From positions 124,001 to 188,000 of the forward strand of contig JAFWJL010000008.1 of the NCBI GenBank assembly GCA_017511605.1: a DNA stretch of 64,000 bases, in the 5' to 3' direction. The notes beneath the pieces are model-generated. The model worked only from the letters and a program-made list of their open reading frames with translations, searched no databases and had not been told where the DNA came from. Shown here one piece after another: positions 27,145 through 62,584 of the stretch. The stretch's first letter is position 1; each line of letters begins with the position of its first letter. Made by a program: the position numbers and the translations under genes. The stretch comes from Bacilli bacterium (lineage in GTDB: Bacteria; Bacillota_I; Bacilli_A; RF39; UBA660).

Positions 27145-27161
27145 ATGTATAGGTGAAGTGT

Positions 27162-28055
27162 ATGAAAATAGAAGATGCGATTAGTGATTTTTTAAATTAT
27201 TGTGTCTTTGAGAAAGGGCTATCTGATAGAAGTAAATTATCTTATGAAAATGATTTAAAAGTATATAAAGAGTTTTTAAAAGATAGAGCAATTTATGATG
27301 TGTCTAGAATAAGAAGCGAAGATATAAAAGATTTTTTAAAAGAGAGAAATTCTGAAGAAAGCTCTACTATAGCTCACAACTTAACAGTAATTAAAAATTT
27401 TCATACTTATTTATTAAAAGAAAATATAGTTAAGTCTGATGTGTCTGAGTTTATTGATAGACCTAAATTAAGAAAATCTTTACCTAAAACTTTAAGTGTT
27501 GAAGATGTAGATAGACTACTTGATATTAAGCTAGATAGTGCATTTGACTATCGTAATAAAGCTATGTTAGAATTAATGTATGGCTGTGGTTTAAGAGTTA
27601 GTGAACTTGTAAATTTAACTCTTAATGATATAGATATGACTAATTGTTTGATTAGAATATTTGGTAAAGGAAGTAAGGAAAGAGAAATACCAATTGGAGA
27701 ATATTCTATTTATTATTTAAAAGAATATTTAAATGTGAGAGATTCTTTATTAAAAGGTAAGCCATGTAATAAATTGTTTTTAAATAATCATGGTTCTAGT
27801 ATTTCTAGACAAGGTTTTTTTAAAATGTTAAAACAATTGTTGAAGGAAAAAGGATTGAATACGGATGTATCTCCTCATACTCTTAGACATAGTTTTGCAA
27901 CTCATTTGATTAATAGGGGAGCAGATCTAAGAAGTATACAAGAGATGCTTGGACATTCTGATATTTCAACGACTAAAATATATACTAAAGTTAGTGATGA
28001 AAAAGTAATAGAAGAATACAACGAATATCACTATCGTAGTAAAAAGGAGCAGTAA
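27162..28055 (+). CDS. xerD: Tyrosine recombinase XerD
   Basis: 297 aa: an N-terminal SAM-like core-binding domain (residues 1-95) and a catalytic domain with all active residues. These are Arg in CGLRVSEL, Lys in GKGSKERE, HTLRHSFATH, GHSDISTT and Tyr in KIYTKV. The full length and the deoB neighbour, a common Firmicute arrangement, argue for the housekeeping XerD that resolves chromosome dimers rather than an integrase. ATG at 27162 follows AGGTGAAG. Confidence 0.9.
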   Translation: MKIEDAISDFLNYCVFEKGLSDRSKLSYENDLKVYKEFLKDRAIYDVSRIRSEDIKDFLKERNSEESSTIAHNLTVIKNFHTYLLKENIVKSDVSEFIDRPKLRKSLPKTLSVEDVDRLLDIKLDSAFDYRNKAMLELMYGCGLRVSELVNLTLNDIDMTNCLIRIFGKGSKEREIPIGEYSIYYLKEYLNVRDSLLKGKPCNKLFLNNHGSSISRQGFFKMLKQLLKEKGLNTDVSPHTLRHSFATHLINRGADLRSIQEMLGHSDISTTKIYTKVSDEKVIEEYNEYHYRSKKEQ

Positions 28056-29453: not shown

Positions 29454-29973
29454 AAATAACCTCCTGTTATTATGATGTACTATTATTTTTATTTTATACG
29501 CGTATATATCCTTATTTATATATAATATAAGGATATAGAAGATTCATTCTCGTGAAATTAGATGATGAACTATCCATCTAATTAAATCTAAATTGATGAG
29601 AATTAATTTCGTGATTTTAGGTGAAGAACTACCCATCTAAGAGGAGATAAATCGCTTAGAATTCACTCTACTTTTTTATATACAATGAGGAGTGGTATTG
29701 GGCTATATCTATATAATATATAAATAATAAGATATAAATACATGCGTGTAAATTTAAATTAAAAATAATTTTAAAATTTAATTTTTAATTTATAAATATG
29801 TTATAATTAATATGTAATTATGATTTATTAAAAAATATGAAAATTCATATAAATAGGGGTAGTTTTCATAATAAATATATATAGAAGTTAACATAATATC
29901 AATTATAGGAAGTTCTTTTCTCTTGAATCAGACCCTACTATTTACTTATTTATATATAATAAAAGTAATGAAA
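29454..29973. other. 520-bp region without a convincing protein gene
   Basis: Besides the RNA candidate described separately, it holds a 12-bp palindrome TATACGCGTATA (29496-29507), an inverted repeat ATATCCTTA / TAAGGATAT (29506-29514 / 29528-29536) and extremely AT-rich sequence from 29700 to 29830. A terminator lies at 29961. Only very short frames without ribosome binding sites were seen. Confidence 0.6.
29541..29677. ncRNA. Candidate structured RNA with two similar hairpin modules
   Basis: Two 32-base units (29550-29581 and 29609-29640) share about 27 positions, including GAACTA and CCATCTAA. Each can fold into TTAG(A/G)TG / CATCTAA hairpins. A paired A-T to G-C change (module position 13 with 24) suggests a conserved inner pair. 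Outer pairings ATTCTC / GAGAAT would enclose the first module. A T-run (29671-29677) follows on +. No match to a class I know. Strand is uncertain. Confidence 0.4.
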
Positions 29974-52824: not shown

Positions 52825-53496
52825 CTTTAGACTTCTTAAATACTCTTTTTGGTCATTTGTTATTCGATAACTTTCTATTGCTTTTTGAATAGTTTTATTA
52901 TGTACCCATACATCTAATTTATTATTTTCTATGTATTTAATTGCTTCATCATATTGTTTAGCTAGTGCTGTTGCAAAATACCAAGCAATCATCATATTTA
53001 CATAATATTCTTTGCTTCTAATCTTAGATACTAATTCTAAATATTTTTTATTAAAACTTTCATTTAGAAAATGTTCCATAAGTATACCTATACCAAATCT
53101 AATGGTATAAGTTTGTTTTGATTTAATCCATATTTTAATATATTCGATTAATTCTTCTTTATGCTTTTTAAATACTTTAGGAGACATTTGATCACAAGTT
53201 GCCCAATTATCTACATATGGTAGGAATTTATTAGTATAATTCATACATTCATTAAAATCTTTTAATTCAGAAATAATAAAAGCATGCAGTTGATTTTCAT
53301 CAAAATATTTATGAGGCAATTCCTCTAAAAAATCTTTATAATTATTAGTTTTTATTAATTCTTTAGCTAATTTTCTAAGTTCTGGAGTACGTATTCCAAT
53401 AAAAATTGTTTTGTTAGCTGTAGGAATTAATTTAACTTGAAAATCTCTATATTCTTTGTCCTGTAATTCATATAATTTTGTAGTAATATTACTCAT
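52813..53496 (-). CDS. DNA alkylation repair protein (AlkD-like HEAT-repeat glycosylase)
   Basis: 227 aa, all helical HEAT-like repeats, with GIRTPELRKLAKEL near residue 32, HKYFDENQLHAFII and VDNWATCDQMSPKVF near 93. These match the DNA_alkylation_repair family (PF08713), which excises bulky or alkylated bases. AAAGGAG precedes the ATG. Confidence 0.88.
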   Translation of the reverse strand: MSNITTKLYELQDKEYRDFQVKLIPTANKTIFIGIRTPELRKLAKELIKTNNYKDFLEELPHKYFDENQLHAFIISELKDFNECMNYTNKFLPYVDNWATCDQMSPKVFKKHKEELIEYIKIWIKSKQTYTIRFGIGILMEHFLNESFNKKYLELVSKIRSKEYYVNMMIAWYFATALAKQYDEAIKYIENNKLDVWVHNKTIQKAIESYRITNDQKEYLRSLKKKN

Positions 53497-53505
53497 AATA
53501 CTCCT

Positions 53506-54270
53506 TTATTTAATTATTTTAATAGTACTTAGTATATCTTTTAGAAAACTTTCATCCTTAAAACGAGGATCATTTGTCGTGAAACCATATTTTCTATTAT
53601 TATCTAATATAGTTATTTGATATACTGATATTTCATTTTTAGTTCCAATTTTAAATATATAGCCATCTAGATCACCTTTAATAATAGTCATAGATTCAAT
53701 TTTTGGAATGACTATTTCGACATAATAATTAAATGAACAATTTTGCATCATTTTACTTGTGCTAGTAAATATATTATTTTTTAATGGATAATTATCTCCA
53801 ATAAACTTATAAAAATCAATTTCATTTTTGATATTATTGTCTTTTAGAAATTTTTTTCTATTTGCTAAATAAAAAATATTAGTTCTTATATCAGTTTCTC
53901 CATAAAAGTTTATATCTTTAGAATTAGTTTTAAAACCTTCTACAAGTGACATGTTTTGTTCATTATCATCTATAAAATAAATAACTGATGTTGTTCCGTC
54001 AGAATTATTTTTTATATATCTCTCTTTTGTTTTTTCATCTAAATTGTACCCGTCCATTATATTTTTTAGTTTTATGCTGTTATGAGTAAAATACTCATCT
54101 TCATTTAGTGTTTTAGACGTTATGGTAATTTCTTTCCTATTTTGTAATCCTTTTGTGATTATATTAATGGAATCTTTATTTGTATTACATAATAGTAACA
54201 TTACAATTTTAAATACAATAATAAGTAGTAATAAAATTATTAATGTTATTAGCATTTTTCTTTTTTTCAT
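53506..54270 (-). CDS. Membrane-anchored hypothetical protein
   Basis: 254 aa: a basic N-terminus and one helix (residues about 6-28) followed by an outside domain with no recognised motif. AAGGGGA precedes the ATG. Part of the all-minus-strand accessory island. Confidence 0.6.
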   Translation of the reverse strand: MKKRKMLITLIILLLLIIVFKIVMLLLCNTNKDSINIITKGLQNRKEITITSKTLNEDEYFTHNSIKLKNIMDGYNLDEKTKERYIKNNSDGTTSVIYFIDDNEQNMSLVEGFKTNSKDINFYGETDIRTNIFYLANRKKFLKDNNIKNEIDFYKFIGDNYPLKNNIFTSTSKMMQNCSFNYYVEIVIPKIESMTIIKGDLDGYIFKIGTKNEISVYQITILDNNRKYGFTTNDPRFKDESFLKDILSTIKIIK

Positions 54271-54289
54271 ATTATTCCCCTTTTAATGC

Positions 54290-55036
54290 TTATTTTCTTA
54301 ATATAAGATTTTTATTTAAGTATTCATAAATTCCTTCTTCGTCGTTAGTTGAGGTGATTGCTTTTGCTTTATGTTTTACTTCATCGATAGCATTTCCCAT
54401 TGCTACTCCCATACCAACATTTTCTAATATTAGTAAATCATTTTCGGCATCACCGAAAAATATTACTTCATCTAAAGAAATTGACATTTTTTCAATTATC
54501 TTTGATAGTGTACTTAATTTGTTTGTTTCCTTTTCGTTTATAGTTAGCCATAACCATGTGTTTTTGTTATCTGTATCTTTCATTGCTACTACATTAACTG
54601 TATCAATACTATCTGTTATAACCTTTTTATAATGCGCTTGTTGTTCTGCTGTATTTAAATATACATTCATTCTTGCAATTTCTTCATCTATATCGTCAGT
54701 TGAGTTTATATTTACTCTAATTCCTTTAGGATCATTTGCACCCTTTATAAAATATTTATTAAGGGAAACATATTCACATCTTGCATCTGTATCTTTAAAA
54801 ATTTCTTCTATTTTTCTTAAATCATTGTCACTTAATGTTCCGAATGAAGAGATACTATTTGATTTTGCATCCAAAACAAATGCACCATTATTTAGTAATA
54901 CATAATCAAACATATTTACATCTAAGACGTTTTTAGTACTTGCTAAGTTCCTAGCTGTTATTCCAATTACTAGGTAATTATTATTTCTGCATTCTTCTAA
55001 TATATTTTTTGTGTTTTCTGTTTTATGTCCTTTCAA
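54290..55036 (-). CDS. HAD-family (Cof-type) phosphatase lacking its N-terminal DxD motif
   Basis: 248 aa. Motif II (VIGITARNL), the Cof cap domain, and motif IV (FFGDAENDLLIL near residue 196) are present. The N-terminal catalytic motif DxDGT, normally within the first 12 residues, is absent. The frame begins at a TTG inside the end of the upstream gene, at the residue where family members usually continue after DxDGTL. Without the nucleophile Asp it should be inactive, so this is probably a 5'-truncated gene. Confidence 0.72.
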   Translation of the reverse strand: MKGHKTENTKNILEECRNNNYLVIGITARNLASTKNVLDVNMFDYVLLNNGAFVLDAKSNSISSFGTLSDNDLRKIEEIFKDTDARCEYVSLNKYFIKGANDPKGIRVNINSTDDIDEEIARMNVYLNTAEQQAHYKKVITDSIDTVNVVAMKDTDNKNTWLWLTINEKETNKLSTLSKIIEKMSISLDEVIFFGDAENDLLILENVGMGVAMGNAIDEVKHKAKAITSTNDEEGIYEYLNKNLILRK

Positions 55037-55577
55037 TAATTTTCTTTTTCTTTATATCTTTTAATATGCTATATATTATTTTTGTTTTATCATATGCTAA
55101 GTTTTCTTCACCTGCATATTTTTCAAATTCTTCTAATATTTCATCTATGTTATTAACATTTACTCTGTCATTTATAATATATTTAGCTACTTCTATTCTA
55201 TCTCTCCAGATTAATGTCATGAGTGTATCAGCAATTATCTTATCTGATAAAGTACATTTTTTATATAAGCCTAGTACTAGTTCATCAGTGATTGGCCTTG
55301 GATTTGTTACTATTATTTTATTTGATCTATATATTCCTTTTTCTTTACTTACAGTAATTACTTCTGCGTCTTCTGGAATAATAACGTCATATAGTGTATC
55401 ACCTCTATGAAGCCATCTTAATATTTTATCTTCTGTACCAAAATTAAAACCACCTATTTTTTCTGGTTCGGTTTCTTTTGGATTCCAATTATCAGTTACA
55501 TTTATTTCATCCAATTTATATTCAAAACCACCGGCATTTGATTTTAATCCATCCATTACTCTAACAAATTTACTCAT
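55023..55577 (-). CDS. Hypothetical protein, paralogous to the N-terminal domain of the 56075 gene product
   Basis: 184 aa. Shares with the protein at 56075 the pattern GGFNF near residue 43, LRWLHRGDTLYDVIIPEDAEV and a helical second half (VNVNNIDEILEEF). I do not recognise the family. The start codon lies 9 bases after AGAAAGAAGG, a possible remnant of the rlmCD tail. Its last codons (IIERT) overlap the truncated HAD gene by 14 bases. Confidence 0.65.
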   Translation of the reverse strand: MSKFVRVMDGLKSNAGGFEYKLDEINVTDNWNPKETEPEKIGGFNFGTEDKILRWLHRGDTLYDVIIPEDAEVITVSKEKGIYRSNKIIVTNPRPITDELVLGLYKKCTLSDKIIADTLMTLIWRDRIEVAKYIINDRVNVNNIDEILEEFEKYAGEENLAYDKTKIIYSILKDIKKKKIIERT

Positions 55578-55582
55578 ATTTG

Positions 55583-55600
55583 CCTTCTTTCTAGTATTAT
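55583..55600 (-). repeat. Possible short remnant of the rlmCD tail (J4)
   Basis: On the - strand ACTAGAAAGAAGGC directly before the start of the 55577 gene resembles the last bases of the J2 tail copy. Only about 11 bases match, so this is weak on its own. Confidence 0.35.
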
Positions 55601-56019
55601 TTAATTAATTCTAAATCACCATTAATTATTATTGGGCCAAAACCTTGTATTTCATCAAATAACATACCGCTAGGAATATCATTATATAAATAAATTTTCT
55701 TATCTAATCTAAATGCATCATACATTTCTAAAAATGTTGCTCCACCAATATAATTTTTTAATACTTCTCCATCTTTTTCTTTATCAAAGTTTAATACTAA
55801 AACTGCATCTACACTTGAAATTGTGTCTTCACTTTGTTTATACATTGCTGATTTGAACTTTTTATGTTCTTCTATACCTAAATTCCATGCTTTTTGTTCA
55901 GCAGTTGGATCATCATAACAATTTGGTAGAATTACTTCTATATTTTTCTTTTCTAAATATTTTTTAACGTCATCTATTTTTGAATAAAACTTTTTACTAC
56001 ATATTACAAATACTCTCAT
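55597..56019 (-). CDS. Nucleoside-deoxyribosyltransferase-like/TIR-like fold protein
   Basis: 140 aa, Rossmann-like: VFVICSKKFY at the N-terminus, VDAVLVLNFDKEKDG near residue 72 and GGATFLEMYDAFRLDKKIYLYND near 92. The pattern resembles nucleoside 2-deoxyribosyltransferase-related small proteins with a conserved Glu in the FLEMYDAF helix. The exact function is unknown. It starts 6-7 bases after AGAAAGGAG, which belongs to a copy of the rlmCD tail (J3). Confidence 0.65.
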   Translation of the reverse strand: MRVFVICSKKFYSKIDDVKKYLEKKNIEVILPNCYDDPTAEQKAWNLGIEEHKKFKSAMYKQSEDTISSVDAVLVLNFDKEKDGEVLKNYIGGATFLEMYDAFRLDKKIYLYNDIPSGMLFDEIQGFGPIIINGDLELIK

Positions 56020-56024
56020 AATAT

Positions 56025-56057
56025 CTCCTTTCTAATATACAGACACTCTCACAATGG
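56025..56057 (-). repeat. rlmCD 3'-end copy J3
   Basis: On the - strand it begins CCCATTGTGAGAGTGTC and ends ATTAGAAAGGAG. In the rlmCD frame it reads HCESVCILERR, close to the real tail HCESITVLERK. It lies between the stop of the 56075 gene and the start of the 56019 gene, preceded by TTAGCACTGA. Confidence 0.75.
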
Positions 56058-56074
56058 GTTGATCGGTGTCAGTG

Positions 56075-57172
56075 CTAATTCATTTCATCAATTTTTTCTA
56101 TAAAATTATTTGAATATTTATACCATTTATAAATTGCTTTTTTTCTTTCTTTATAATTATTTATTTCTTTTTCGGTATAATTTTTGTTATTTAATTTAAA
56201 TCTTTTGATAGTTCTTTCATAGCAAGTATCAATACAAGTTCTTATAACTATTAATGTTCCTCTTAATATGTTTACATTTTTAATACAATGAAATTGAGCA
56301 CAATCAATAACAATTGTTTTGTCATATTTTTTGCAATAATCTAGTATCTCACTATAAATCAAATCAAAATCTTCCCCACAATTAGGTAAAATTTCATATT
56401 TATTTCTAAAATACTCTCCTAATTCTTTATTTATTCCAGTGCTTTTACTATATCTTTCGTCTGAAAAAATATTATCTGTATCAATTATTAAATATTCATT
56501 ATTATTAAAGTGATCATTTGCATATGTAGATTTTCCAGAGCCACTTTGTCCTGTCAAATTTATTACATTATCTTCCGTAATTTTTTTGGTATATGGATCC
56601 TTATCAATAAACAAATTAATATCTATTGGGCTTTTTATTTCATCTAAAATTTCTTTAACTTTATTATAACAATCATAATCAACTTCATGCCATGGTTTTA
56701 TAGAATTGATAAATTCATCTAATGCTAAATCTATATTATCCATATTAACTTTATCCTTAATCAAAGTTAAAGCAATATCATAATATCCTCTTGAAGCTAA
56801 TAATCCAATACATTCAAAATATGTAGTTAAAGGAAGCTTTGATTTTTTATAAAATTCCATTAATAATTCTTCTGAAATTGGTATAGGATTTTTGAGAATA
56901 ATTTTATTTGAAACAATTATTCCACCAGGAGTTTTATCATTTCTAACATTCACTATTTCACCATCTTGAGGAATTTCTACTTCGTATAGAGTATCACCCC
57001 TAGACATCCATCTTAATGCACATTCTTCATTAGTGAAATTAAAACCTCCACGCTTGTCCCAATCAGTATTATCAGGATCCCATGTATCACATGTAATAAC
57101 TTTCCCTATTTCAAACTTTTGATTATCTCTATGACCAATATTATCTTTAAAAATCCACTTTAGATATTTCAT
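56075..57172 (-). CDS. Two-domain protein: RGGFNF domain plus P-loop kinase
   Basis: 365 aa. Residues 1-165 are homologous by eye to the product of the 55023 gene (RGGFNF, LRWMSRGDTLYEVEIPQDGE). Residues about 200-365 are a P-loop kinase with Walker A GQSGSGKST, LIIDTDNIF and TIVIDCAQFH, of the shikimate/zeta-toxin-like AAA_33 kind. Possibly phosphorylates a nucleotide or sugar-nucleotide (inference). It starts 7 bases after AGAAAGAAGG of tail copy J2. Confidence 0.7.
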   Translation of the reverse strand: MKYLKWIFKDNIGHRDNQKFEIGKVITCDTWDPDNTDWDKRGGFNFTNEECALRWMSRGDTLYEVEIPQDGEIVNVRNDKTPGGIIVSNKIILKNPIPISEELLMEFYKKSKLPLTTYFECIGLLASRGYYDIALTLIKDKVNMDNIDLALDEFINSIKPWHEVDYDCYNKVKEILDEIKSPIDINLFIDKDPYTKKITEDNVINLTGQSGSGKSTYANDHFNNNEYLIIDTDNIFSDERYSKSTGINKELGEYFRNKYEILPNCGEDFDLIYSEILDYCKKYDKTIVIDCAQFHCIKNVNILRGTLIVIRTCIDTCYERTIKRFKLNNKNYTEKEINNYKERKKAIYKWYKYSNNFIEKIDEMN

Positions 57173-57178
57173 TTTTTT

Positions 57179-57215
57179 ACCTTCTTTCTAATACAGTGAC
57201 ACTTCCACAATGGGG
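57179..57215 (-). repeat. rlmCD 3'-end copy J2
   Basis: On the - strand from CCCCATTGTGGAAGTGTC to TTAGAAAGAAGGTAA. In frame it reads HCGSVTVLERR-stop. It matches the true rlmCD end at 28 of 36 bases, and several differences are synonymous codon changes (Ser TCT/AGT, Thr ACA/ACT, Val GTT/GTA). Confidence 0.82.
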
Positions 57216-57306
57216 CGTATCAGTGCTAAGCACTCTAACCTTGTTTCAGTATTAGGAATATTTCCTAGCTATGAAACTACCCTATTTGTTTGCGTATTAG
57301 TGCTAA
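57215..57306. repeat. Spacer module between cassettes, flanked by direct repeats (J2 side)
   Basis: GCGTATCAGTGCTAA (57215-57229) and GCGTATTAGTGCTAA (57292-57306) flank a 62-bp unit. Inside are AGTGCT-A-AGCACT (57222-57234) and TAGGAA-N3-TTCCTA. The unit aligns with the spacer at 58181-58258 over TAACC.TGTTTCA, AAACTACC and GCGTATTAG. Confidence 0.7.
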
Positions 57307-57322
57307 ATCAGTTATTGTTAAA

Positions 57323-58114
57323 TTATTTGATATATTGTTCCATAACATATATTTCTTTAAAACCTAGTTTTTCATAATAAGTTTGATTCTTAGTATGATA
57401 TTCAGTACATAGTAATAAATGTTCTCCTTTGTTTTTGTTGAATATTTTTATTAAGTATGTTAATACTTGCTTGCTATATCCTTTATTCCAGAATCCTTGC
57501 GCCGTACCAACGTTATTTATCATGCCAATGCCATCAACAATATTTAATGTGGCAACACTAACAGGTATATTATCTTCATTATAGCCAATAATATGATATG
57601 TTTTAGTGCTATTCATCGAAATTTTTACTGCATCATAATAACATTTGGTAACTGCATCAGCATAAACGTTTTCATTTGAATTTTCAATATTATCATTATA
57701 AGCTGATGCCAACACTTTCATAAAATCATTATATTCAATTTCTGTCTCTACAATTTTTATTTTCATACTAATATCTGTTTCTTTATAATCAGTTAAAATC
57801 ATAAATACATCAGTATCATTTAGTTTATATCCATTGTCTAGAATAAATCTTTTATTATCTTCATAATATTGGTCGTCCCTTCCAATATAAATAGAAGGAA
57901 TACGATTCATTGATTTTAATTTGTTTTCTATTTCAGTAATTATATCTTTATTAGTTTTATTCTTTAAATAAGCCATATTCCAAAAATAATCATCCATCAG
58001 TTTAGAAGTGCATAAAATATAATTTTCTGTTTCTTCTTTTGTATCGAAAAACATACCTTTTAATAATTCATATTGCATATTCCAACATGTTGAACAATTA
58101 AATACTCTTTCCAT
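57323..58114 (-). CDS. GNAT-family N-acetyltransferase
   Basis: 263 aa. The N-terminal half is divergent. The C-terminal GNAT fold carries the acetyl-CoA loop VGTAQGFWNKGYSKQ near residue 206, followed by HLLLCTEYHTKNQTYYEKLG. The substrate is unknown. It starts 8 bases after AGAAAGGAAG of tail copy J1, which provides its ribosome binding site. Confidence 0.82.
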   Translation of the reverse strand: MERVFNCSTCWNMQYELLKGMFFDTKEETENYILCTSKLMDDYFWNMAYLKNKTNKDIITEIENKLKSMNRIPSIYIGRDDQYYEDNKRFILDNGYKLNDTDVFMILTDYKETDISMKIKIVETEIEYNDFMKVLASAYNDNIENSNENVYADAVTKCYYDAVKISMNSTKTYHIIGYNEDNIPVSVATLNIVDGIGMINNVGTAQGFWNKGYSKQVLTYLIKIFNKNKGEHLLLCTEYHTKNQTYYEKLGFKEIYVMEQYIK

Positions 58115-58120
58115 ATTCTT

Positions 58121-58156
58121 ACTTCCTTTCTATAACTGCAATTGATTCGCAATGGG
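58121..58156 (-). repeat. rlmCD 3'-end copy J1
   Basis: On the - strand from CCCATTGCGAATCAATTGC to AGAAAGGAAGTAA. In frame it reads HCESIAVIERK-stop, matching the true rlmCD end at 31 of 36 bases. It lies between the HD-domain gene and the GNAT gene. Confidence 0.85.
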
Positions 58157-58161
58157 TGGAC

Positions 58162-58258
58162 ACCTATTTATAAATAGGTTATTTAACCATGTTTCATATT
58201 AAAAAACATGTTCCTATACATAAAACTACCTATGTTGATTGCGTATTAGGAACATATG
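58162..58258. repeat. Spacer module between cassettes (J1 side), with inverted repeats
   Basis: Contains a perfect 18-bp palindrome ACCTATTTATAAATAGGT (58162-58179) and nested inverted repeats ATGTTCCTA / TAGGAACAT (58208-58216, 58247-58255) and ACATA / TATGT (58218-58222, 58231-58235). The right part is homologous to the J2 spacer. Confidence 0.7.
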
Positions 58259-58284
58259 CTTTTTTTAATTATTACAATGGTATA

Positions 58285-58956
58285 TTAATAATCTTCATAA
58301 TAATTAATTATTTTTTCATATGTTCCATCTTGTGTAATTTTATTCCATTCCCTTTGATATATTGATTTTGCATAATCTTTATTCAAGTACTCATCTTGGA
58401 ATTTATCTCTTCTTTCTACTAATATCGGATTATTTGTCCAAAGATTAAACTTACCTTTGTCATTAATTCTTTTACAAATGTATTGATAACATCTTTCAAA
58501 ATGTGCATCAAAGCCATGAAGTTCAGGATAATTTTTTATTGATGTAGCTATTTGACGTTTAGCTAATAGTTTAATATCAAAATCTCTATCTGAGTCTGAG
58601 ATACATTCCCCATAAAAATTTCTTGGTCGTGTTTTTCTAGAACCTCTATGATCTTCAATTGCTTTCTTCATTATTTCAAGTTGTTCATCACTAAAAAAAT
58701 TCTTTAATTTTTCATCATTTATCATGATTTTTCCAGATTCAAATTCATGATTTTCTCGATCTACGCCTAAACCAGAATCGTGATAACTTGCTATTGTGTA
58801 TGCCATATTACGATCTAAATTATAATAGTCAGCTAACATTAGCATATTATTAATAACATTATTAATATGTATCATTCCATGTGAATAAAACTTATCATAT
58901 TTAGGAAATATGTTTTCTTCGATGTACTTTTTTAATGCTTTATTAATCTTTTTCAT
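58285..58956 (-). CDS. HD-domain phosphohydrolase
   Basis: 223 aa. HD-domain residues: His in YSHGMIHINNV near residue 22, the HD pair in IASYHDSGLG near 58 and Asp in SDSDRDFDIK near 120. Likely hydrolyses a nucleotide or another phosphate ester. It begins 3 bases after the rlmCD stop codon, with AAAGGAAG inside the final rlmCD codons as ribosome binding site. Confidence 0.78.
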   Translation of the reverse strand: MKKINKALKKYIEENIFPKYDKFYSHGMIHINNVINNMLMLADYYNLDRNMAYTIASYHDSGLGVDRENHEFESGKIMINDEKLKNFFSDEQLEIMKKAIEDHRGSRKTRPRNFYGECISDSDRDFDIKLLAKRQIATSIKNYPELHGFDAHFERCYQYICKRINDKGKFNLWTNNPILVERRDKFQDEYLNKDYAKSIYQREWNKITQDGTYEKIINYYEDY

Positions 58957-58959
58957 ACT

Positions 58960-60150
58960 TTACTTCCTTTCTAAAACTGTGATAGATTCACAATGATAAG
59001 TTCTAGGAAACATATTAAATACTTTTATATAGTTAACTTTATAAGTATCTAAGTCTTTTATATCTCTTGCTAGTGTTATCGGATCACATGATACATATAT
59101 TATTCTTTCAGGGTTTATTTGTTTTAAATAATTCTTTGTTTTTATATCTAATCCAGCTCTAGGTGGATCTACTATTACTAAATCAATATCTTTGAATTCT
59201 TCTATTCTATTTTCTACTTTATCACAGATAAAACTTATATTATTTACATTATTTAGTATTTTATTTTGATTAGCATCATCTATATTAGATTTATTATAAT
59301 CTATTCCTATTATTTCATTTACATAGTCAGATATATAGATACCGATAGTTCCTGTACCGCAGTATAAATCTAATACAGTATTATAATTTTTGTCTTTTAC
59401 ATTAATTAATACTTCATTGTATAGTTCTTTAGTTAAAGTATTATTTACTTGGAAGAAAGAAGAAATTCCTTCAATATACTTTTTATTACCAATACTTGTT
59501 TCTATTACATGATTATCTGTTTTATATTCATTATTAATAATTAAAACATCACATAATTCTTTTAATATATCAATATTATCTATACTACCTGTAATAGATA
59601 CCATTACTTTAGAATTATCATTAGATGTTTTTATTATTGCTTCGGATATTTCTTTTTCTATAGAATTTAATACTTTTATTACTTCATTTATTTTAGGGTT
59701 AGATATAAGACAATTTTGTATAGGTATTATTTCATTAGTATTTTCTTTATATAAACCTATTTCATTATCTTTACCATGAAGTATTAATTTATTTCGATAG
59801 TTATTTCTATCATGATAAATAATTTCTTTTACTAAATTAGAATCTATATTAGCATACTTCTTCATAATATCTTTTACTTTATTTAATTTAAATCTATTTT
59901 CATCATTAAAACATATATGGTTTAAGTTACAACCACCACAAATATTAGAATACGGACATTCTTCTTCTATTCTTAGAGGAGATTTTTCTATATACTTAAT
60001 TACTTTAGCATTATAATACTTTGTTGTTTCTTTTATTATTTCTATTTCTACTACTTCATTAGGTAATGCATTTTCTATGAAACAAATCTTATCATTTATA
60101 TAAGTAATACCTCTACCAAAATTATCTAATTTTAATACTTCTACTTTCAT
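58960..60150 (-). CDS. rlmCD: 23S rRNA (uracil-5-)-methyltransferase RlmCD type
   Basis: 396 aa: an N-terminal TRAM-like domain, four Cys of an Fe-S cluster (ECPYSNICGGCNLNHICF near residue 64), SAM-binding DLYCGTGTIGIYI near 262, and the catalytic Cys in IYVSCDPITLARD near 350. It forms m5U in 23S rRNA. Its last codons (HCESITVLERK) are repeated downstream between accessory genes; in streptococci the related rumA gene is a known integration target for mobile elements. Confidence 0.9.
   Translation of the reverse strand: MKVEVLKLDNFGRGITYINDKICFIENALPNEVVEIEIIKETTKYYNAKVIKYIEKSPLRIEEECPYSNICGGCNLNHICFNDENRFKLNKVKDIMKKYANIDSNLVKEIIYHDRNNYRNKLILHGKDNEIGLYKENTNEIIPIQNCLISNPKINEVIKVLNSIEKEISEAIIKTSNDNSKVMVSITGSIDNIDILKELCDVLIINNEYKTDNHVIETSIGNKKYIEGISSFFQVNNTLTKELYNEVLINVKDKNYNTVLDLYCGTGTIGIYISDYVNEIIGIDYNKSNIDDANQNKILNNVNNISFICDKVENRIEEFKDIDLVIVDPPRAGLDIKTKNYLKQINPERIIYVSCDPITLARDIKDLDTYKVNYIKVFNMFPRTYHCESITVLERK
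58962..58995 (-). repeat. rlmCD 3' end, reference copy J0 of the repeated tail
   Basis: The functional last codons of rlmCD, CATTGTGAATC through AGAAAGGAAGTAA on the - strand. Serves as coding sequence, as ribosome binding site for the next gene, and as the presumed insertion target of the cassette array. Confidence 0.75.
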
Positions 60151-60224
60151 AATATCCCTCTACTTCATTATAACAAAGTTTTCATATAATTTAAATAATT
60201 ATACATACTAATAATGGTGATTTT

Positions 60225-61610
60225 ATGGAGTTAATTAATAATATTAAAAAATTATTATATCCGTCTAAAGATTATATATTTGATGAAGTAATTATTAAAG
60301 ATAAACATATTAATATTGTATATAATGAAGTACTTAGTGATACTAGGTCAATTAATGATTATATTTTATTTAGATTATCTAAGTTAAAATTAGAAGAGTT
60401 TAATCATTTGGAAGATAATTTATATGCATGTAATGTATTAGTTATTAATGAAGAAGATATAGTTAATTATTTGAATAATGGATTTGTGATTATTATTTAT
60501 AAAAAGATATATGCAGTGGAATTAAAGTCTGTATTAGATAGAGGTATTACTACAATACAGAGTGAATTATCTTTAAGTGGTCCAAAAGACGCTTTCTCGG
60601 AAAACTTTAATACTAATTTGGGTTTAATTAGAAGAAGAATTAAATCTAATTATTTAAAGAGTGAAACTATGGATATTGGTAAAGTTAGTAAGACTAAAAT
60701 TGGTGTACTTTATATAGATAATATAGTTAAGAAGGATTTAGTGAGACACGTTTTAAAGCAATTAAATAAAATAGATATAGATGGAATAATTGATTCTAGT
60801 TATTTAAAAAATTCTTTAGAAAATAAGTTTAATTTATTCCCTACTTTAATTATGACAGAACGCCCTGACAAATGTAGTATGGCACTACTTGAGGGAAAGA
60901 TTGTAATAATTGTAGATACTAGTCCTTATGCAATTATATTACCTAGTTTTTTTATAGATTTTTTTCATACTACTGATGATTATTTTCAAAAGAGTTTTAA
61001 TGCTAGTTTTATTAGAATTGTTAGATTAATTGCGTTTTTAATAGCTATATTTGTACCGGGATTATATATAGCTATTACGACTCGTAATTACAATTTAGTA
61101 CCACTCGATTTGTTACTTGTATTAAAAGCTGGAAGAACCTTTGTGCCCTTCCCTGCTTATATTGAAGCCATATTTATGATTATATGTTTTGAAATATTAA
61201 AAGAATCAGACTTACGTATGAGTGTAGTTAGTGGAAGTGCTATATCAATACTTGGAGGATTAATATTAGGAGATGCTGCAGTAGCTGCAGGAATTGTCTC
61301 TCCTATTATGATTATAATTATTGCAATTTCATCTATTGCTGGGCTTATATTTAGCTCAATAGAATTATCTAATGCGATTAGAACATATAAAATATTTATA
61401 CTTATATTAGGTAGTATATTTGGTATATATGGGGTTATATTAGGAGGTATTATTATACTTTTTAATTTACTTACTACTGAAACATTTGGATATAATTATT
61501 TAAGTTTTGATAAGAATGAAATAAAAGATTCTATTATAAAAATAGATACTAGAATTAGAAAAAGAAATACTAAGTTATCTAATAATATTATTAGGGGGAA
61601 ATATAGATGA
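60225..61610 (+). CDS. GerA-family spore germination protein (A subunit)
   Basis: 461 aa. The N-terminal soluble domain contains SGPKDAFSENFNTNLGLIRRR near residue 114. A membrane domain of about five helices follows, with LVLKAGRTFVPFPA and LGGLILGDAAVAAGIVSP near residue 345. This is the GerAA/GerKA/SpoVAF family, which senses germinants or moves ions in the spore inner membrane. No gerB or gerC gene follows, so it may be a SpoVAF-like orphan. GGTGAT precedes the ATG. Ends with TGA. Confidence 0.88.
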   Translation: MELINNIKKLLYPSKDYIFDEVIIKDKHINIVYNEVLSDTRSINDYILFRLSKLKLEEFNHLEDNLYACNVLVINEEDIVNYLNNGFVIIIYKKIYAVELKSVLDRGITTIQSELSLSGPKDAFSENFNTNLGLIRRRIKSNYLKSETMDIGKVSKTKIGVLYIDNIVKKDLVRHVLKQLNKIDIDGIIDSSYLKNSLENKFNLFPTLIMTERPDKCSMALLEGKIVIIVDTSPYAIILPSFFIDFFHTTDDYFQKSFNASFIRIVRLIAFLIAIFVPGLYIAITTRNYNLVPLDLLLVLKAGRTFVPFPAYIEAIFMIICFEILKESDLRMSVVSGSAISILGGLILGDAAVAAGIVSPIMIIIIAISSIAGLIFSSIELSNAIRTYKIFILILGSIFGIYGVILGGIIILFNLLTTETFGYNYLSFDKNEIKDSIIKIDTRIRKRNTKLSNNIIRGKYR

Positions 61611-61888: not shown

Positions 61889-62584
61889 TATTTCTTCTTC
61901 TATTAATTTGTCTTTATAACTTACTTTATATACTTTAGCTTTATTATCTGATTTAATAATAGATATTTCGTCATCTATTATTTTTAATGCTGTATTATTT
62001 TCTAGAGAATATACTTCTTCATTATTTTTAGATAAGTATTCTTCTAATTCTTTATTTTTTTTAGGATCTATATTATAGTGAGGGCAAAAATTAATATTTA
62101 TGAAGTTTAATCCTTTAATAAACTTATATTTATCAGATTCTCCTCTTGCAATTAATGAATCACTAAATCCTTTATTAGATAAAAGAATAGCTCCTGCAGA
62201 CATACCAGCAATTACTGTACCTTTATTGTATGCTTCTAGAAGTAATTCTTCTAAATTGTATTCTTTTACATGATCTAATAGTTTTATTGTGTCTCCTCCA
62301 CAAATATATATGATATCGGCATCATTTATTTTTTGTTTTACTATATCAGGATTATTTACTAGATTAGATTTTTTTAAATATACTGGAGTACATCCTAATT
62401 CTTTATATATTTTTTTCATAGTATCATAATATGAATCAGCATGGCTTGAAGCTAATCCTATAAATAAAAAGTTAGGATTTTCTTTTTCTGTTAGTTTTAC
62501 TATTTCTTCATCAATTTCTTTTGTTGAATAAGTGGTTTCTCCGCGACCTGTGTCTCCTCCACCTATAAGTACTAGTTTTTTCAT
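61883..62584 (-). CDS. pepE: Peptidase E-like (S51) serine peptidase
   Basis: 233 aa of the S51 family: GGGDTGRGETTYSTKEID at the N-terminus, CGGDTIKLL near residue 95, and nucleophile Ser in AGMSAGAILLSNKG near 128, with NFCPHYNIDP near 168. It resembles Asp-dipeptidases or the related cyanophycinase-like group. The start overlaps the end of the upstream HAD gene by 4 bases. Confidence 0.85.
   Translation of the reverse strand: MKKLVLIGGGDTGRGETTYSTKEIDEEIVKLTEKENPNFLFIGLASSHADSYYDTMKKIYKELGCTPVYLKKSNLVNNPDIVKQKINDADIIYICGGDTIKLLDHVKEYNLEELLLEAYNKGTVIAGMSAGAILLSNKGFSDSLIARGESDKYKFIKGLNFININFCPHYNIDPKKNKELEEYLSKNNEEVYSLENNTALKIIDDEISIIKSDNKAKVYKVSYKDKLIEEEIK

Follow-up and report, generated by a model that had tools for sequence, protein, structure and literature searches.

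A probable mobile gene cassette array at the 3' end of rlmCD in a Bacilli bacterium, with integron logic and non-integron parts

Background

Single-gene cassette capture is a hallmark of integrons. Other mobile elements target the 3' end of an RNA methyltransferase gene and restore or exchange that end on insertion. The staphylococcal and enterococcal cassette chromosomes (SCC and ECC) insert at rlmH around TATCATAA (PMC6222049), and streptococcal integrative and conjugative elements (ICEs) with a serine integrase use rumA (PMC4701971, PMC5357655, PMC5633684, PMC10044541), the 3' part of which is exchanged (PMC4701971, PMC5357655, PMC5633684). Here we describe a locus of a Bacilli bacterium in which copies of the last codons of rlmCD alternate with single accessory genes. 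It lies in a 64-kb stretch, referred to below as the window (positions 124,001 to 188,000 of contig JAFWJL010000008.1, assembly GCA_017511605.1). Comparison with related genomes makes it very probable that mobile gene cassettes have collected here as an array, at one fixed site within the final codons of rlmCD. A search of the open PubMed Central literature gave no account of arrays of this kind.

Results and discussion

A probable cassette array behind rlmCD

In the window and in its relatives, a cassette consists of a tail of about 36 bp, usually one gene, and a 3' element that measures about 110 nt and closes with CATTG(Y). The tail runs from CATTGYGA to GAAAGGARRTAR and comprises the last 11 codons of RlmCD, the stop codon and a Shine-Dalgarno sequence. 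Four tails, J0 to J3, lie on the minus strand of the window (Table 1), where the initial annotation had placed them, and its translations of these tails in the rlmCD frame were likewise confirmed. The tails are called at E 5e-12 to 5e-9 in 64 kb by R1, a sequence-only tail model built from 37 tails that include J0-J3, which therefore match by construction. A 36-nt score matrix from the same 37 tails gives them 42-51 bits, against a best score of 5.7 when the window was resampled 20 times as a first-order Markov sequence (one strand). A repeat finder had paired the tail copies at 65-86% identity before relatives were added.

J0, the present end of rlmCD, translates as HCESITVLERK followed by the stop, and it is identical in 35 of 36 positions to an internal tail of another genome (locus L049, position 2584) that is not joined to rlmCD. 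J2 without the conserved Glu and J3 without a stop would not now serve as normal rlmCD ends. The claim that one gene lies between each pair of tails held, as did the assignments to an HD-domain protein, a GNAT protein and a kinase fusion; the label deoxyribosyltransferase-like for the 140-aa product of cassette 4 was not confirmed. A further partial tail, J4, had also been proposed. R1 finds no match besides J0-J3 in the window up to E 1, and since J4 holds only the AGAAAGAAGG part, it is either the remnant of a tail or a plain ribosome-binding site. The conserved 3' element that cassettes usually carry was absent from the earlier description.

Relatives of the RlmCD product in the Protein Data Bank (PDB) are RumA (1uwv) and SP_1029 (5xj1). 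The cassette 3 gene belongs to a gene cluster with 7 copies in 6 loci. An open reading frame (ORF) of 263 aa whose N-terminus, compared by eye, is similar to that of the cassette 2 product lies downstream of rlmCD in another genome (L227, position 5283). Relatives of the 184-aa gene that follows J4 carry tails elsewhere.

Table 1 Features of the window that bear on the rlmCD cassette array
Feature	Position	Strand	Description
rlmCD, platform gene	58960..60150	-	396 aa; Pfam tRNA_U5-meth_tr and TRAM; last 11 codons and stop are J0
J0, tail of cassette 1	58960..58995	-	rlmCD C-terminal codons and Shine-Dalgarno of next gene; R1 41.9 bits
Cassette 1 gene	58285..58956	-	HD-domain protein, 223 aa; PF01966; gene cluster 0, 12 copies in 9 loci
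Cassette 1 3' element	58155..58266	-	class D, ends TAGGTGTCCACC directly before CATTG; aligned to 8 other class D elements
J1, tail of cassette 2	58119..58154	-	R1 32.6 bits; HCESIAVIERK; still readable as rlmCD end
Cassette 2 gene	57323..58114	-	C-terminal GNAT domain, 263 aa; PF00583
Cassette 2 3' element	57213..57322	-	class A by alignment; distal repeat of its own end 12/15
J2, tail of cassette 3	57177..57212	-	R1 35.4 bits; HCGSVTVLERR; conserved Glu codon changed (HCG)
Cassette 3 gene	56075..57172	-	365 aa; N-terminal part of no assigned family, then P-loop kinase (PF13671 below cut-off); gene cluster 2
Truncated class A end	56057..56078	-	about 22 nt left, by sequence; overlaps end of cassette 3 gene
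J3, tail of cassette 4	56022..56056	-	R1 36.1 bits; HCESVCILERR; stop codon lost
Cassette 4 gene	55597..56019	-	140 aa; no Pfam match; gene cluster 5, 3 loci
J4	55580..55596	-	Shine-Dalgarno stub; only AGAAAGAAGG part present
184-aa gene	55023..55577	-	resembles N-terminal part of cassette 3 product (repeat D1, 71%; gene cluster 2)
XerD-type host recombinase	27153..28055	+	candidate only; TIGR02225 327.2 bits (cut-off 329.6); NF001399 over cut-off
Chromosomal dif	29886..29913	-	about 26 kb from array; exact match to dif of 24/39 relatives

Variable arrays and a probable mobile unit in related genomes

Relatives were traced from a scan of genomes with RlmCD, which gave 11 loci (named as uncultured Bacillales, Bacilli, Erysipelotrichaceae or bacterium); the genus of one of these supplied a set of 39 genomes. 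The arrays of relatives come from assemblies of unknown completeness, metagenome-derived ones among them. RlmCD was matched in 29 of the 39 genomes, and the sequence downstream of rlmCD was read in 28. R1 matches occur in 22 of the 39 (E up to 0.01) and in 26 of 385 genomes sampled from the order (E up to 0.001). Of the latter, 13 were followed up through fifteen stretches, seven weak R1 rows being left out; four genomes have clear arrays (G048, G099, G111 and G227) and most of the others have tail-like rlmCD ends, with or without further tails, the match in G403 not being at rlmCD. The analysis set comprised 62 loci, of which 47 have a tail of at least 24 bits.

In many genus loci the same tails are followed by different cargo downstream of rlmCD. 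Every tail in the 62 loci has the same orientation, the opposite strand carrying none of at least 16 bits, and matches are confined to 1-4 contigs per genome, with up to 12 matches (in G019, where one of them is the same cassette on two contigs). Units are small, 48 of the 62 with both ends seen being under 1.5 kb. ORFs start within about 45 nt of 89 of the 109 tails of at least 24 bits, and the genes form 46 clusters. In a first set of 64 genes the start codon lies 2-4 nt after the 36-nt tail in 51 and 1-6 nt after it in 56, a tight spacing which suggests that the cassette genes may be read from the platform promoter. The cargo includes small nucleotide or house-cleaning enzymes, among them HD, NUDIX, Ham1, HIT and nucleoside hydrolase proteins.

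We regard one cassette as the decisive case for a mobile unit, as judged by sequence. It measures 351-352 bp, carries a 68-aa gene and is found in 8 loci of 7 genomes. Its 3' end is always of one sequence class (class C, see below), the upstream ends against which it lies belong to classes B, C, D and E, and six aligned copies are homologous from CATTG to the next CAT. Comparisons of this kind show where a unit begins and ends, that units share one orientation and that array content varies. Copies of one gene in different loci agree in 3' class in 38 of 64 pairs, as compared with 29 of 137 pairs for the class upstream, so that the 3' class is linked to the gene, although not strictly. Five of the 28 rlmCD contigs end between -1 and +5 nt from the junction (G007, G016, G017, G034 and G036), which suggests that the assembly forks exactly there and that alternative cassettes exist in the population.

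Three tail patterns had no match in 2.9 million viral contigs, one array stretch had none among phage records, and another, compared with plasmid records, matched in only one GyrI-like gene. In two genomes, cassettes follow the same hydrogenase-like operon (named by eye; L051 at 7615 and L217 at 10289), where ATAACTCAT directly precedes CATTG; the end of this operon is a possible second attachment site.

The tail as part of the cassette

Twenty-seven rlmCD ends in the set are tail-like. Over their 351 pairs, the DNA identity of the tail is only loosely related to that of the preceding 300 nt of the rlmCD body (Spearman 0.26); for the 33 nt that adjoin the junction upstream the value is 0.66, and when 7 native ends are added, the two values are 0.15 and 0.56. 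Bodies of 61% DNA identity bear tails of 94-97%, and three loci (L049, L072 and L219) have identical tails on bodies of 69-73%. The initial annotation took each copy to descend from a working rlmCD gene of another lineage. The near-identical tails on 61% bodies refine this: the tails behave like 5' ends that belong to mobile cassettes, and not like relics of distinct rlmCD lineages. On these alignments, the last 11 codons of rlmCD belong to the cassette rather than to rlmCD, and the end of the gene has been exchanged. At the second codon of the tail, 23 of the 27 tail-like ends have Cys and all 7 translated native ends have Val, a contrast that is partly circular because the tail score favours CATTGY.

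The tail starts at H-x-E, and the Glu of this motif, which is Gln in SP_1029 chain 5zq1 and Glu in 5xj1 according to the PDB sequences, presumably corresponds to the catalytic base known for RumA. The motif and the stop are intact in all 27 tails joined to rlmCD, as against 57 of 82 others (Fisher 0.0004), with similar contrasts at cut-offs of 16 and 30; the displaced tails that have lost one or the other include J2 and J3. Greater damage in displaced tails is what repeated insertion next to rlmCD predicts, and the compared sequences do show it.

Empty sites, which the initial annotation had proposed to look for, exist in relatives. Seven loci (L047, L051, L054, L058, L061, L064 and L065) have native rlmCD ends without an adjoining cassette tail, two of them (L051 and L058) with tails further downstream. 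By sequence comparison, native-type tails with their flank also lie behind the array cassettes of L067 and L072, and both match the native end of L061: 70 of 80 positions are identical in L072 (flank 30/32) and 65 of 80 in L067 (flank 25/32), as compared with 19/32 for the native flank of L051. Repeated site-specific insertion of small cassettes with replacement tails, as first proposed from the window alone, is thus supported by relatives, in which other cargo follows the same tails and a single cassette has different neighbours.

The 3' element

The stretches of 110 nt that precede the junctions sort into sequence classes A-E, of which A and D can be aligned with each other. Among 107 junctions of at least 24 bits with enough upstream sequence, 70 match a class end in 9 of 12 letters and 55 of these share words with another element; 54 unique ones entered a repeat test (9 of class A, 20 of B, 12 of C, 11 of D and 2 of E), and the alignments took in 9, 17 and 15 of the unique elements. 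Recurrence of the terminal 15-mer peaks at -32 and -78 (summed z of the five classes 12.7 and 10.4), followed by offsets 79 (7.1), 33 (5.7) and 19 (5.4). Both repeats are present in classes A, C and E, the last with two members, only that at -32 in B and only that at -78/-79 in D; in single elements the repeat is often not significant alone. Class-specific elements that tend to repeat their own end up to three times hint at recognition by self-matching rather than by a fixed protein site. Some junctions, such as that at J3 in the window, retain only the last ~22 nt of the element.

Class B matches were found in 2 of 60 order genomes searched, both array-bearing, and only at tail junctions. A class A match at position 62220 of the window lies inside a gene and was taken as chance. 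RNAalifold gave weak consensus structures; a double change occurs at a single pair, in class C, for which the alignment is partly misaligned, and at none in classes A/D or B. In single-strand DNA folds of two window elements the last 7-9 nt are unpaired (z -1.4 to -3.0). Folding is modest, and for this reason we claim no attC-like structure. Rfam had no match in window positions 53000-60500 (E up to 1), nor in loci L067, L221 and L061 (E up to 0.5), the latter search covering the ORF6N leader described below.

Exchange point and candidate recombinases

Sequences left of the junction are unlike one another as far as CAT. When copies of the same cassette with near-identical tails were paired (39 pairs, 26 of which come from one cassette), the Y of CATTGYGA, at tail position 6, was found to differ in 20 pairs, the next highest count being 13, and in several pairs it is the sole difference. 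In L060 a native-like CATGTGGA is joined to a cassette-like tail. Alleles inside CATNNNGA thus seem to derive from either side, which would fit the overlap region of a tyrosine-type recombinase better than the 2-bp core of a serine recombinase. Xer-type enzymes (PF00589) are also the only recombinase family present in 39 of 39 genus genomes. On these two grounds we lean tentatively towards tyrosine-type exchange, at a little under even chances; a serine integrase comes next, and is unlikely. Our confidence in any named recombinase is low.

By gene context, XerC- and XerD-like genes are found in the loci read; other PF00589 genes are mobile, lying downstream of secA with a Mob-like gene. XerD is on a tail-bearing contig in some genomes, 12 to 54 kb from the tails. 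The dif site of the group, ACTTCCTATAATTGATATTATGTTAACT, is identical in 24 genomes and the window and was found once each in 25 of 39. No dif occurs at the array junctions, the only window match within 3 mismatches being that at 29886. A likeness to the XerC arm of dif near the junction, TTCCTAGAA in the rlmCD of the window, was considered and dropped; several tail-bearing rlmCD genes outside the genus are without it. None of the recombinase loci read carries a tail of at least 20 bits (L073-L112 and L138-L186) or of at least 12 bits (L229-L244). In eight of these (L138-L143, L145 and L146) tyrosine recombinase genes of ~435-455 aa immediately follow a secA-like gene (genes named by eye), and in many cases another recombinase and a Mob-like gene accompany them, which marks an integration hotspot; in L240 (G023) three adjacent tyrosine recombinase genes on one contig resemble a recombinase trio.

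ORF6N proteins (PF10543) were rejected as the recombinase: the family is widespread in other settings, with 7999 of 7999 scored candidates, and whether a genome has it bears no relation to arrays (10 of the 18 with two or more tail matches, 10 of the 21 others). Within tail-match genomes, 13 of 21 matches are on tail-bearing contigs, which make up 4.3% of the sequence, and we treat ORF6N as frequent cargo. The structural model, usable only in its C-terminal part (mean predicted local distance difference test score 53), resembles proteins of the phospholipase D (PLD) fold such as NucT; a structure search placed TrmBL2 in the top rows, with poor alignment. ORF6N genes with the PLD-like C-terminal fold are near arrays in L067 (3049-4008, minus), L045, L051, L058, L061, L072, L121 and L127. 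Their leader, of ~110 nt, is strongly conserved and includes a terminator-like hairpin, and in L058, L067, L072 and L127 a tail follows within 240 nt.

Proposed mechanism and alternative explanations

In the proposed mechanism, a new cassette would recombine at CATNNNGA in rlmCD; its tail would restore the H-x-E end of the RlmCD enzyme, its gene would be placed under translation coupled to rlmCD, and the older tail would be pushed downstream, where it could decay. The step would be conservative and site-specific, probably passing through a circle, with an exchange region of 8 bp (CATTGYGA) and a recombinase acting in trans. It is possible, though we would not wager on it, that this is a gene-capture system not described before, a Bacillota analogue of the integron that lands on the catalytic end of a housekeeping rRNA methyltransferase, has self-matching 3' ends and uses either host XerC/XerD in a new role or a novel enzyme. 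Because each cassette would bring both the codons of the catalytic end and a ribosome-binding site, capture, repair of the host gene and expression would then be one event.

Several points weigh against the cassette reading. Most displaced tails (57 of 82) are still intact, and L067 bears a native-type end at its own start (position 54) as well. The 3' class differs in 26 of the 64 same-gene pairs, which implies that ends were exchanged or genes acquired repeatedly. The 62 loci were picked for an rlmCD or tail match, so that counts describe chosen sites rather than prevalence, and the 27 tail-like ends had to score as tails, which biases them towards CATTGY and towards alike tails. Contig ends at the junction can also stem from repeats within one genome. 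Neither an excised circle nor an empty and occupied pair within one strain was seen. No recombinase was noticed beside a tail in the ORF lists of array loci, where Pfam was run on part of the ORFs; given the unknown completeness of the assemblies, this absence is weak evidence.

One rival explanation involves no mobility: the tails would be either a ribosome-binding leader kept by conservation or copies of the rlmCD end that arose by local duplication, and homologous recombination would have shuffled them. The strong Shine-Dalgarno sequence at the end of the tail, and the close spacing to the start codon, would agree with a leader; against it, the junctions are sharp, with unrelated sequence left of CAT, the coding potential of the tail reaches back to H-C-E, class B elements keep to tail junctions of array-bearing genomes, near-identical tails sit on divergent rlmCD genes, and the variable neighbours of one cassette contradict an immobile array. 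We consider this explanation very improbable. The initial annotation had named an invariant gene order and a plain leader as outcomes that would speak against the cassette reading, and neither is borne out by the relatives. Movement by a nucleic-acid-guided or insertion sequence (IS)-like transposase, with the 3' element as its end or guide (IS110/IS1111 with a guide RNA, or Y1), accords with the fact that different classes repeat their own terminal 15-mer, a hint of self-matching over one protein site. Set against this, IS110 (PF01548) is over cut-off in only 9 of 39 genus genomes and Y1 (PF01797) in only 5, four IS110 loci (L158-L161) have no 3'-element match at E 1e-4, and the upstream class equals a unit's own class in 4 of 41 units, where 8.8 are expected, so that copies do not choose their target; this explanation appears improbable.

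More serious, although still unlikely, is the possibility that the arrays are SCC- or ICE-like remnants, left where a large serine recombinase of passing elements targets rlmCD/rumA and moves cassettes. In its favour, rumA is a target of single serine integrases of streptococcal ICEs (PMC4701971, PMC5357655, PMC5633684), and SCC and ECC insert at rlmH around TATCATAA, where rlmCD here reads TATCAT. PF00239 is present in 22 of the 39 genus genomes, 13 of the 18 with two or more tail matches and 9 of the 21 others, an association that is not significant (Fisher 0.11). Five array genomes, of unknown completeness, have no PF00239 (G003, G008, G025, G028 and G030), no contig with an R1 match carries one, the serine recombinase loci (L093-L112) are among those without a tail, and core alleles seem to segregate either way, unlike those at a 2-bp serine crossover.

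Comparison with known systems

If the same capture logic operates in low-GC Bacilli, in which integron parts were not found, cassette arrays would have arisen more than once. A housekeeping gene may here serve both as platform and as selection for correct insertion. The arrays would mark a stream of small nucleotide and house-cleaning enzymes between species, for which the CATTGYGA tail together with the 3' element provides a search motif.

The likeness to integrons lies in the array logic: mostly single-gene cassettes in the same orientation at one chromosomal site, apparently read from the platform. To this extent the integron-like reading of the initial annotation stands. The integrase IntI (TIGR02249) is over cut-off in none of the 39 genus genomes, the best match being a 93-bit fragment (cut-off 265) in array genome G028, and attC sites were not found. 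The 3' elements are sequence-conserved classes instead of attC-type folds with paired core sites, and a housekeeping gene acts as the platform, its end being remade by each cassette. SCC and ECC elements, inserted at rlmH by CcrAB or CcrC, share the 3' end of an RNA methyltransferase gene as target, repeated insertion and restoration of the gene end. Here the site is rlmCD, the common core is only CATNNNGA instead of TATCATAA, and the cassettes are mostly of one gene, without a ccr serine recombinase gene inside and with a 3' element of about 110 nt.

The streptococcal ICEs and integrative mobilizable elements at rumA resemble the arrays in target, the 3' end of the same gene family, and in exchange of the gene end. 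They are large and encode their own integrase, with attR within the integrase gene at the element end, an arrangement not seen in the array loci read, the units of which have no recombinase. The dif/pdif modules of Acinetobacter plasmids, which depend on XerC/XerD, are likewise small accessory modules with a recombinase encoded elsewhere; the array junctions are not dif. The best reading is of a cassette system with site-specific insertion that resembles integrons and SCC in operation and by its parts belongs to neither. With high confidence in the cassette reading itself, we describe the rlmCD locus as a mobile cassette array that combines integron logic with non-integron parts.

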